From an uncultured Pelagibacteraceae bacterium (lineage in GTDB: Bacteria > Pseudomonadota > Alphaproteobacteria > Pelagibacterales > Pelagibacteraceae), in contig CACFOC010000004.1 of assembly GCA_902567945.1 (NCBI GenBank), forward strand, positions 1-45,284: a stretch of 45,284 nucleotides of DNA, written 5' to 3'. The notes under the pieces are model-generated. The model was not told where the DNA came from and did no database searches. It saw only the letters and a program-made list of their open reading frames with translations. Both the position numbers and the translations under genes were made by a program. Below are positions 31,389 to 35,379 of this stretch, in pieces. Position 1 is the stretch's first letter. Each line of letters starts with the position of its first letter.

Positions 31389-32216
31389 TTAAATATCAAC
31401 TATAATTTTTTCAATCTCAGAAACTTTACCTGTCATGTAAATATTATTATCTTTTTTCCAATTAATATTTAATACTCCTCCTAAAAATTCTATATCTACA
31501 CATCTTTCATTTAATTTAAGAATGGCACCCGAAACTGCTGTAGCACATGCTGCTGTTCCACATGCTTTAGTTAAACCAACGCCACGCTCCCAAACTTTTA
31601 CTTTAACAGTTTTACTATTTTTAATATTAGCTAAAGTAACATTGCATTTTTCCGGAAAATAATCATGGGTTTCTATTTTAGGACCAATTTCTTTTAAATT
31701 AAATTGATTTAAATCTTCAACAAAAAAAATTATATGGGGGTTTCCAATACTTAATGAAAAGCCACCTTTGATTTCATCTCCATTTATACTATTAATTTTT
31801 ATTTCTAAATTTTCATTATTCATCTTTTTTGATAAGGGTATTTTTTTCCATTCAAAATTAGGTTGGCCCATGTTTATGCTCACCAAATTTTTATCATTTA
31901 ATTCTGCCCTCAAAATCCCAACTTTTGTTCTTAAAGATATTTTTTTACTATTATTTTCTTTCATCAAGAAATATGCAACACATCTAGAACCATTACCGCA
32001 TGCTGAAATTTCATTTCCATCAGAATTAAAAAATTTTAGAAATGCATTACTACTTTCATCTTTTTCAATAAAAATTACTTGATCACAGCCAATATTATTT
32101 CTATCTGAAATTTTTATGATTTGATCTTTGGAAAGAGAAATAGATTTTTCTCTTCTATCAAATATGATGAAGTCATTGCCTAATCCATCCATTTTATAAG
32201 CTTCTAAATTGTTCAT
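31389..32216 (-). CDS. dapF: Diaminopimelate epimerase
   Basis: DapF converts LL- to meso-diaminopimelate for lysine and peptidoglycan synthesis. The two catalytic cysteines are visible in SACGNGSRC and TKACGTAAC. YKMDGLGNDFIIFD, the GNPHIIFFV segment and EKCNVTLANI also fit the family. I choose the ATG at 32216 (MNNLEAYKMDG), giving 275 residues, rather than an upstream TTG. It is co-directional with ftsY, two bases apart, and divergent from ffh across a 164-base region that holds three hairpins. Confidence 0.96.
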   Translation of the reverse strand: MNNLEAYKMDGLGNDFIIFDRREKSISLSKDQIIKISDRNNIGCDQVIFIEKDESSNAFLKFFNSDGNEISACGNGSRCVAYFLMKENNSKKISLRTKVGILRAELNDKNLVSINMGQPNFEWKKIPLSKKMNNENLEIKINSINGDEIKGGFSLSIGNPHIIFFVEDLNQFNLKEIGPKIETHDYFPEKCNVTLANIKNSKTVKVKVWERGVGLTKACGTAACATAVSGAILKLNERCVDIEFLGGVLNINWKKDNNIYMTGKVSEIEKIIVDI

Positions 32217-32239
32217 ATTTTTAGTTTTATCTTTATTTA

Positions 32240-32268
32240 TTGACTTTTTGAACCTCAATATGTAGTTT
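32240..32268 (+). promoter_or_regulatory. Possible promoter for the ffh leader
   Basis: TTGACT (32240-32245), a good -35 match, is followed 17 bases later by TAGTTT (32263-32268), a poor -10 match. Transcription from here would start near 32275, just before the first hairpin of the structured region. This would give ffh a roughly 105-base leader. Confidence 0.3.
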
Positions 32269-32279
32269 GCTGCCTATTC

Positions 32280-32355
32280 CCGCAAAAGGAAGTTTTTGCG
32301 GTGCCTTTGGAAACAAAGGGATCGACACTAGTCAGCGAAGGTTCGCCCACTAGTG
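32280..32355 (+). ncRNA. Three-hairpin structured leader or small RNA ahead of ffh
   Basis: Three perfect stem-loops lie in a row. Hairpin 1 is CCGCAAAA/TTTTGCGG (32280-32287, 32294-32301) with loop GGAAGT. Hairpin 2 is CCTTTG-GAAA-CAAAGG (32304-32319), closed by a GNRA tetraloop when read on the plus strand. Hairpin 3 is CACTAGT/ACTAGTG (32326-32332, 32349-32355) with an inner GCGA-AGGT-TCGC stem. The segment is far more GC-rich than the surroundings and contains no open frame. The tetraloop favours plus-strand transcription, as an ffh leader or separate RNA. I do not recognise a known class, and it lacks the SRP RNA domain IV signature. Confidence 0.45.
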
Positions 32356-32380
32356 CAATTTGTGCTGGAATAAATGAATT

Positions 32381-33727
32381 ATGTTTGAAAATTTAACAAG
32401 TAAATTTGAAGAAATTTTTAGTTCTTTAAAAAAGGCTCCATCACTTAATGAAACCCAAGTTGATGAAGGCTTACGAAATATACGCCAAGCTTTATTAGAA
32501 GCAGATGTAGCGCTACCTGTAGCGAAAGAACTTATAAAAAATATAAAACCAAAGGCAGTTGGTAAAGAAGTTATTAGATCAACAACACCTGGGCAAATGA
32601 TTGTCAAAGTTGTTTTTGATGAAATTGTTAAAATTTTAGGAGACAAAAAATCTGAATTAAATTTAAACGCAGTTCCTCCCGTTTGTTTAATGTTGGTTGG
32701 ATTGCAAGGGTCAGGAAAAACAACAACAGCAGCAAAGCTTGCAAAATATTTAGAAAAAAATAATAAAAAAAAATCTCTTTTGGTCAGTTTGGATATTTAC
32801 AGACCAGCTGCACAAGAGCAGTTAAATATATTAGGTGAAAAAAATTCAATACAAACTTTGCCCATTGTTAAAGATCAGCTACCAGTTGATATTGTAAAAC
32901 GTGCTCTTAATGCTGCATCTTTAAGCGCAATCGATTCCATAATTTTTGATACAGCTGGAAGAACTCAAATTGATCTATCTATGATGAATGAAATTAAAGA
33001 AATCAAATCAATTGCAAACCCAATAGAAACAATTTTAGTTGCCGATTCTCTTACAGGTCAAGTTGCTGTTAACGTTGCTCAAGAATTTAAAAAAGCTGTT
33101 GATTTGACAGGAATAATTTTGACTAGAGTAGATGGAGATGGAAGAGGTGGGGCAGCTTTAAGTATGAAATTTTCTACAAATACTCCTATCAAATTTATTG
33201 GAATAGGTGAAAAAATAGACCAGCTAGATGTTTTTCACCCAGATAGAATAGCTAACAGAATATTAGGAATGGGAGACATTGTCTCTTTAGTAGAAAAAGC
33301 TTCACAAGATCTTGATGAAGAAAATATTAAAAAAACAGAAGAAAATTTAAAATCAGGTTCTTTTTCTATGGAAGATTATTTAAATCAACTTAGACAAATG
33401 AAAAAAATGGGTGGCATGGAAGGTGTGTTATCTATGCTACCTGGAGTATCTAAAATAAAAAAACAGATGGATAATGCAAATGTTGATGAAAACATAATTA
33501 AAATTAATGAAGCAATTATTTTATCAATGACTAGAGAAGAAAGGTTAAATCCAAAAATAATTAATAATTCAAGAAAAAAAAGAATTTCTAGTGGATCAGG
33601 AGCCGATTCTGCCACTATAAATAAATTGTTAAAACAATTTAAAATGATGACTAATATGATGAAAAAAATGTCAAAAGGTGATCCAAAGGGAGGATTACCT
33701 CCAGAAATTTTTAATCAACTAAAATAA
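32381..33727 (+). CDS. ffh: Signal recognition particle protein Ffh
   Basis: A 448-residue SRP GTPase that binds signal sequences and 4.5S RNA. The N domain (FSSLKKAPSLNETQVDEGLRNIRQALLEADV) is followed by the G domain motifs GLQGSGKTTTAAKLA, DTAGRTQID and LTRVDGDGRGGAALS. The methionine-rich M domain has MKKMGGMEGVLSMLPG and the RNA-binding region RKKRISSGSGADSATINKLLKQF. The length is normal. It heads a transcript with rpsP, trmD and rplS. Only a short unpaired stretch separates the structured upstream element from the ATG, with no obvious Shine-Dalgarno sequence. Confidence 0.98.
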   Translation: MFENLTSKFEEIFSSLKKAPSLNETQVDEGLRNIRQALLEADVALPVAKELIKNIKPKAVGKEVIRSTTPGQMIVKVVFDEIVKILGDKKSELNLNAVPPVCLMLVGLQGSGKTTTAAKLAKYLEKNNKKKSLLVSLDIYRPAAQEQLNILGEKNSIQTLPIVKDQLPVDIVKRALNAASLSAIDSIIFDTAGRTQIDLSMMNEIKEIKSIANPIETILVADSLTGQVAVNVAQEFKKAVDLTGIILTRVDGDGRGGAALSMKFSTNTPIKFIGIGEKIDQLDVFHPDRIANRILGMGDIVSLVEKASQDLDEENIKKTEENLKSGSFSMEDYLNQLRQMKKMGGMEGVLSMLPGVSKIKKQMDNANVDENIIKINEAIILSMTREERLNPKIINNSRKKRISSGSGADSATINKLLKQFKMMTNMMKKMSKGDPKGGLPPEIFNQLK

Positions 33728-33742
33728 AAAAAGGAGATAAAT

Positions 33743-34168
33743 ATGTTAAAAATTAGATTGTCTATGGGTGGAGCTAAGAAAAGGCCAGTATACAAAATTG
33801 TAATTGCAGATAGTAGGTTTCCAAGAGATGGAAGATTTATCGAAAAAGTAGGTTTTTTTAATCCACTACTGCCCAAAACAAAAAAAGAAAGAATTAATCT
33901 AGAAGTTGAGAGAATAAAACATTGGATAAGCAAAGGTGCCAAACCAACTCTAAGAGTATCGAGAATATTGGGAGAAGCTGAAATTTACCCGATGCCCGCT
34001 CAAGGAAATAATCCACTTAAAGCAATTCCAAAGAAAGATAGAAAAAAAGATAAAAATAAAGCTGAGGCTAAAAAAGAAGAACCAAAGAAAGAAGAACCAA
34101 AGAAAGAAACACCTAAAGCTGAGGCTAAAAAAGAAGAACCAAAGAAAGAAGAACCAAAGAAAAAATAA
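33743..34168 (+). CDS. rpsP: Ribosomal protein S16 with a Lys/Glu/Pro-rich C-terminal tail
   Basis: S16 is a small-subunit assembly protein. Residues 1-85 or so match it well: MLKIRLSMGGAKKRPVYKIVIADSR at the start, RDGRFIEKVGFFNPL and the WISKGAKPTLRVSRIL region. The usual length is about 80-90 residues; here it is 141 because of a low-complexity tail (AEAKKEEPKKEEPKKE type, then ending PKKK). The tail includes an exact 45-base repeat. A strong AAGGAG ribosome-binding site precedes the ATG. trmD starts at the base after its stop, with no rimM in between. Confidence 0.96.
   Translation: MLKIRLSMGGAKKRPVYKIVIADSRFPRDGRFIEKVGFFNPLLPKTKKERINLEVERIKHWISKGAKPTLRVSRILGEAEIYPMPAQGNNPLKAIPKKDRKKDKNKAEAKKEEPKKEEPKKETPKAEAKKEEPKKEEPKKK
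34061..34162 (+). repeat. Exact 45-bp repeat in the rpsP tail
   Basis: Two identical 45-base units (34061-34105 and 34118-34162), separated by 12 bases, encode the AEAKKEEPKKEEPKK segment twice. Each unit itself contains a shorter internal repeat of AAGAAGAACCAAAG type. The identity suggests recent duplication or homogenisation. Confidence 0.9.
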
Positions 34169-34858
34169 ATGTGGACGGCAAAAGTATTTACTTTGTATCC
34201 TGAGTTATTTCCAGGACCACTGGGTAATGGTTTATACAAGAAAGCACTGGAAAAAAAATTATGGGCACTAAAGGTAGTGAATATAAGAGATTATGCTTTA
34301 GATAAGCATAAAACTGTTGATGACACTCCCTTTGGTGGAGGAAGTGGAATGCTAATGAGAGCAGACGTAATAGCTAATTCTCTAGATAAAAATATTTCTA
34401 ATAAAAAAGAGCCAATTATTTATTTATCACCAAAAGGAAAAAAGTTTGATCAAAATTATGCTAAAAAAATGTTAAATAGTAATATAAATATTATATGTGG
34501 TCATTTCGAAGGAGTAGATGAAAGATTATTAGAAACTAGAGGTATAGAAGAAGTAAGTGTGGGAGATTTTATATTATCTGGAGGAGAGATAGCAGCTTTA
34601 GTAATTATTGATACAATAGTTAGATTAATACCTGGTGTATTAGGAAATTCAGATTCGCTTGCAGAAGAAACATTTGAAAGAAATATGTTAGAATACCCAC
34701 AGTATACAAAACCTCAAAAATGGGAAAAAAAGGATGTTCCAGACGTATTATTAAAGGGAGATCATGCTAAAATTAAAGACTGGCGTTTAAAGCAATCTGA
34801 GGATATAACACGACGCCGACGCCCTGATTTGTGGGAAAAATATAAAAAAAAAAAATGA
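34169..34858 (+). CDS. trmD: tRNA (guanine-N1)-methyltransferase
   Basis: TrmD methylates N1 of G37 in tRNAs that have G at position 36, preventing +1 frameshifts. The SPOUT-fold knot region is clear: FGGGSGMLM near residue 60, [44 protein letters not shown], and the downstream RRPDLWEKY. The 229-residue length is typical. It begins directly after rpsP and overlaps rplS by four bases (ATGA), so it belongs to the ffh-rpsP-trmD-rplS run. Confidence 0.97.
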
Positions 34859-35379
34859 AAAACATAGAAGAAATAAATAGAGAAAGTGTCAAAAAAATTT
34901 TGTCAAAAAAAAAGATACCAGAATTTTTTGCAGGGGACACAATCAAAGTAGGTGTTAGAATTTTTGAAGGCAAAAGAGAAAGAATTCAATATTTTGAAGG
35001 TGTTTGCATAGCAAAAAAAAAACGAGATTTAAATTCATCTTTTACAGTTAGGAAAATTTCTTTTGGAGAGGGTGTTGAAAGAACATTCGCTCTGTTTAGT
35101 CCAATTATTGGTTCAATAAAAGTAATAAGGTCTGGTAATGTTAAAAGAGCAAAATTATATTATTTAAGAGACAGAAAAGGCAAATCAGCAAGAATTACGG
35201 AAAAAATAAAGAAAAGTATAGGTGTAGACATTTCCGAACAATCAGTTGAGCAAGAATCTGAAAATACAAATTTAGGATCTGAAAACCAAAAAAATGCCGA
35301 ACCTCAAAAGGAAGAGGTTAAAAAAGAAACTCTTAAAAAAACAGTAGGAAAAACTGAATTAAAAAAAGAGAAAAAATAA
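34855..35379 (+). CDS. rplS: Ribosomal protein L19 with an acidic/basic C-terminal tail
   Basis: L19 sits at the interface of the two ribosomal subunits. The core covers residues 1 to about 120: [61 protein letters not shown] and [17 protein letters not shown]. The remaining 50 or so residues form a Glu/Lys/Asn/Ser-rich tail ending in LKKEKK that is not part of the family. The low-complexity tail resembles the one on S16 two genes upstream. Its start overlaps the trmD stop. Confidence 0.96.

Follow-up and report, generated by a model that had tools for sequence, protein, structure and literature searches.

A structured RNA element in the 164-base spacer (positions 32217-32380) between dapF-ftsY and ffh was found to belong, almost certainly, to Rfam family RF01793, and very probably functions as a cis-acting leader. 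The element is best explained as the 5' leader of an ffh-rpsP-(rimM)-trmD-rplS operon that is most likely autoregulated by ribosomal protein S16, a reading held at about even confidence, and a ligand other than Ffh is probable. The analysis was performed on a 45,284-nt stretch of DNA from an uncultured Pelagibacteraceae bacterium (i.e. the window), and the elements and genes of the window given with coordinates below lie on the + strand.

The spacer has the layout given in a preliminary description of this DNA, with dapF-ftsY divergent and ffh downstream. All three of the hairpins noted there, spanning 76 bases, were present in the minimum-free-energy fold. Hairpin 1 (32280-32301; CCGCAAAA..UUUUGCGG) lies outside the Rfam model and, like hairpin 2 (32304-32319; CCUUUG-GAAA-CAAAGG), was defined by the fold and by pair counts in SAR11 sequences. 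Hairpin 2 carries the GAAA tetraloop reported previously. Hairpin 3 (32326-32355; CACUAGU-CA-GCGA-AGGU-UCGC-CC-ACUAGUG) is not the perfect stem-loop described earlier, as an internal loop places a C32333.C32348 mismatch beside A32334.C32347. Two fold runs gave z values of -2.9 and -2.6 relative to shuffled sequences, with only 2/200 and 1/200 shuffles, respectively, folding equally well. The GC content of 32280-32365 was 50% as compared to 31% for the window, bearing out the local enrichment described, and this level was reached by only 0.35% of 86-nt windows. A conserved tail follows hairpin 3 (32356-32371; CAAUUUGUGCUGGAAU), has a class-wide form of about CRUUUUUYGYUUKGG and contains a weak SD-like GGA at 32367-32369. 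A probable promoter was located at 32240-32269, consisting of a -35 element (TTGACT, 32240-32245), an 18-nt spacer and a -10 element (TAGTTT, 32264-32269). Its position and spacing agree with a promoter-like TTGAC...TA element that precedes hairpin 1 in SAR11 and in most of the other alphaproteobacterial copies examined. A generic promoter scan of the window did not call the 32240-32269 element, and no intrinsic terminator was found in the window.

The match to RF01793 (ffh) extends over 32311-32364 and the full model (1-52), with a score of 51.7 bits (gathering score 35), and was the sole Rfam match in the whole window. It starts inside the loop of hairpin 2, covering only the 3' arm of this hairpin plus hairpin 3. 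The ffh start (32381) is 16 nt past the end of the match, and the conserved CC of the internal loop is provided by C32347 and C32348. Because of this match, the element is not new: RF01793 is the 'ffh motif' of Meyer et al. (2009; PMC2704228), which was reported to precede ffh in 'Candidatus Pelagibacter ubique' and several alphaproteobacterial orders, drawn as a single bulged hairpin, detected in small-RNA metatranscriptomes and suggested to have a role in ffh regulation. The likeness covers the sequence and structure of hairpin 3, the place upstream of ffh and the clade (SAR11). The Rfam model describes one hairpin of 52 nt, typed as an sRNA, whereas the unit in the window adds hairpins 1 and 2, the promoter and the tail; moreover, unlike the ffh motif as published, the association of the element with ffh does not hold across all lineages. 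RF01793 was present in 268/297 sampled Pelagibacterales genomes and in 106/385 sampled genomes of the class. A copy in Mesorhizobium huakuii 7653R (i.e. MH_s5 in intergenic region IGR_Pb-19) has published RNA-seq coordinates (PMC5596092).

The preliminary interpretation of the spacer as a structured ffh leader, and not the SRP RNA, was thus right, although already published in the form of the ffh motif. No match to the SRP RNA family (RF00169) was obtained over 32100-32480 even at E values of up to 1, and the absence of SRP RNA domain IV noted earlier is consistent with RF01793 being the only family detected. An SRP RNA in disguise was rejected, as the canonical SRP RNA sits elsewhere in SAR11. 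Meyer et al. (PMC2704228) located the canonical 4.5S RNA between pheA and dnaX, and RF00169 was found in 51 of 58 Pelagibacterales genomes at a loose threshold, 42 of these being over the cut-off. The SRP RNA is therefore a separate gene in most SAR11 genomes and shares only an SRP-related neighbourhood with the window element. RF00169 was not found in the window's own genome, an observation that says little because this genome is only 71.6% complete. Three other Pelagibacterales genomes (G024, G028 and G048; >=97% complete) contained RF01793 and had no RF00169 match even at E values of up to 10 and with stricter filters; the SRP RNAs of these genomes may be divergent or may have been missed.

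Covariation was assessed in an alignment of 52 distinct SAR11 leaders, with pairs counted over 36 distinct sequence pairs for hairpins 1 and 2. In hairpin 2, 95% of cells were paired and both-sided changes occurred at 6/6 pairs, amounting to 53 cells as compared to a mean of 13.6 and a maximum of 27 in shuffles that do not preserve relatedness among sequences (0/1000 shuffles reached 53). Hairpin 1 exhibited a similar level of pairing (94% of cells), with both-sided changes at 2/7 pairs and in 7 cells (shuffle mean 1.5, maximum 5), and is the weaker case since the shuffles ignore relatedness. These compensatory changes, at every pair of hairpin 2 and two pairs of hairpin 1, indicate that the structure is not due to chance. 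Folding of the upstream sequences also exceeded that of their shuffled counterparts, with a mean z of -2.5 in SAR11 and a weaker effect elsewhere (-1.35). The conserved unit hence exceeds the Rfam model and consists of the promoter, hairpins 1 and 2, hairpin 3 with its C.C mismatch, and a U-rich/GYUKGG tail. As far as the literature was searched, this larger unit goes beyond the published record, as do the C.C mismatch and U-tract, the linkage to rpsP and the retention of the RNA by an apparently SRP-less family. Two additional pairings were rejected. A closing helix that would pair the 5' end with the SD region (e.g. UAUUC/GAAUA in the window) was convincing by eye, but matched pairs folded no better than mismatched pairs (P = 0.72 in SAR11 and 0.28 in others). 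Similarly, for a switch in which hairpin 2 would pair with the tail (ACAAA/UUUGU), only 7/52 SAR11 sequences reached a pairing energy of -3 kcal/mol or lower.

Of 78 distinct versions of hairpin 3 from Alphaproteobacteria, 75 carried the C.C mismatch, the three misses apparently being parsing failures. This near-invariance, together with the conserved flanks, points to a specific contact at hairpin 3. A structured 5' UTR that sets only mRNA stability or translation level, with no specific ligand, would accommodate the differences in loops and stem lengths between clades, but fits poorly with the conserved mismatch and flanks and is very unlikely. The nine bases after the hairpin 3 stem contained a U-run in 42/64 cases outside SAR11 as compared to 22 expected, whereas no enrichment was observed among 36 distinct SAR11 tails (6 versus 8 expected). 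On the basis of this sequence distribution, hairpin 3 may act as a terminator in the majority of alphaproteobacteria, though as a rule not in SAR11, where roughly 20-45 nt separate the end of hairpin 3 from the start codon of ffh (25 nt in the window). A single mechanism does not, therefore, fit all clades.

The U-tract outside SAR11 also bears on whether the element is an independent sRNA, as had been proposed initially, which would end at hairpin 3 and act in trans, with the operon being expressed by read-through or from another promoter. The terminator-like hairpin, the promoter-like element just 5' of hairpin 1, the typing of RF01793 as an sRNA in Rfam and the small-RNA metatranscriptome detection cited by Meyer et al. 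(PMC2704228) are all in keeping with this proposal. Identical small-RNA data would, however, be given by a terminated leader, and the proposal does not account for the fixed place upstream of one operon or the conservation of GYUKGG past the U-tract. In SAR11, a terminator is mostly lacking, a U-run is usually absent and the start codon is only about 20-45 nt away. An independent sRNA is accordingly regarded as quite unlikely.

The first gene downstream of the element in the window is ffh (32381-33727), encoding SRP54_N, SRP54 and SRP_SPB domains, followed in order by rpsP (33743-34168; Ribosomal_S16, PF00886), which encodes the proposed regulator, trmD (34169-34858), rplS (34855-35379; L19) and leuC. 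The trmD and rplS genes were taken from the list of open reading frames, and a search with the window TrmD protein located homologues in the corresponding position in relatives. Gene context in other genomes was searched using the window Ffh, S16, TrmD, L19 and LeuC proteins as queries, with too-short loci being set aside. The element was followed by ffh and then rpsP in 74 loci of 73 genomes and directly by rpsP in a further 14 loci. While ffh was directly downstream in all SAR11 genomes examined and in nearly all other contexts, rpsP was downstream in all readable loci but one (L235 in genome G524). This locus was rejected as a true exception, as its ffh is truncated and joined to unrelated sequence, and it is probably a bad assembly (i.e. 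a broken MAG contig). Three loci of f24 genomes (L165, L180 and L249) contained ~2-2.6 kb of other sequence between ffh and rpsP, indicating that the operon may be broken or expanded in these genomes.

A conserved structured RNA hence precedes rpsP, with or without ffh in between, in nearly every locus that could be read, as is expected of a ribosomal protein leader. The other operon products were also considered as ligands. RimM was rejected and is unlikely as a general ligand because neither the window nor a locus of the SRP-less family (L196) has rimM between rpsP and trmD. L19 or TrmD could in principle be sensed, as most of the sufficiently long loci have trmD and rplS after rpsP. In one genome (G577, locus L248), however, the element is intact and rplS was not found within 12.5 kb downstream, which makes L19 a less likely ligand, and the nearest constant ribosomal protein gene is that for S16; sensing of either L19 or TrmD is thus given a low probability. 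A recent review (PMC10931766) reported no information on the regulation of this operon.

The SRP is generally regarded as nearly universal among bacteria. A marine alphaproteobacterial family (f51; PS1 clade/MED-G09) nevertheless appears to be without Ffh, FtsY and SRP RNA altogether. The sample of this family comprised 18 genomes from three genera that are 55-97% complete (G345, G564, G640, G469 and G677-G690; loci L190-L206). PF00448, which covers both Ffh and FtsY, was over the cut-off in 0/18 genomes, with one weak partial match of 20.5 bits, and neither PF02978 (the Ffh M domain) nor RF00169 was detected in any of the 18. Control genomes were positive for PF00448 (14/14), PF02978 (14/14) and RF00169 (13/14), and YidC was present in 15/18 genomes of the family. 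A literature search found no paper on SRP absence in the PS1 clade/MED-G09. As PF02978 was detected in 346/385 sampled genomes of the class, the lack of Ffh is an uncommon trait that is not restricted to the PS1 clade/MED-G09; other near-complete alphaproteobacterial genomes in which no Ffh M domain was detected include G405, G379, G425, G371 and G364.

RF01793 was nonetheless present in 14/18 genomes of the SRP-less family, with rpsP directly downstream at 14/14 loci and dapF divergent upstream at 13/14. In locus L190, the gene after dapF is not ftsY; instead, genes for a MiaB-like radical-SAM protein, a redoxin and an aconitase follow. Hairpin 3 exhibited two-sided changes within the family (e.g. 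GUUCGU/ACGAAC in L190 versus GUCCGU/ACGGAC in L203), indicating that its structure is still under selection without the SRP. This family is unusual in itself and constitutes a natural experiment separating an Ffh-based from a ribosomal hypothesis.

Both the preliminary description, in which the leader could sense Ffh or SRP levels, and Meyer et al. suggested autoregulation by Ffh, whereby Ffh not bound to 4.5S RNA would bind the leader and repress ffh. In agreement with this model, the element sits immediately 5' of ffh in every SAR11 genome examined and in nearly all other contexts (PMC2704228). In genomes that possess Ffh, this protein could be the ligand, the element having been re-used in PS1. 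The element was, however, not restricted to genomes in which Ffh exists: its retention before rpsP in 14/18 genomes with no detectable Ffh, FtsY or SRP RNA disfavours Ffh-sensing. The leader also lacks a resemblance to helix 8 (Meyer et al., PMC2704228; RF01793 as sole Rfam match). Autoregulation by Ffh is therefore unlikely. In the SRP-less family the RNA cannot depend on Ffh, and its constant partner is rpsP.

With rpsP as the constant partner, RimM unlikely and L19 weakened, S16 is the most economical ligand, and we infer, with confidence close to evenly balanced, that it is the ligand of the leader. S16 is an operon product that is normally bound to 16S rRNA; free, excess S16 would bind hairpin 3 and its flanks. 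In most alphaproteobacteria, this binding would favour termination at hairpin 3 and the U-tract. The U-tract is missing from most SAR11 leaders, and in this clade the bound S16 would instead prevent ribosomes from loading a few nucleotides further 3'. Under either mechanism, Ffh would be a co-regulated passenger and not the sensed signal. An autoregulatory S16 leader has been proposed upstream of rpsP in Flavobacteria (Eckert et al. 2020; PMC7247131), based on the same reasoning to S16. That leader belongs to another phylum and is likened to the present element by position and proposed role; the latter constitutes a concrete candidate RNA in Alphaproteobacteria. The S16 protein encoded in the window (33743-34168) has a long, low-complexity, charged C-terminal tail (KKEEPKKEEPKK), and a similar charged C-terminal tail (EEAPAEEAKEE) was observed in S16 of the SRP-less family (L196:1582-2004).
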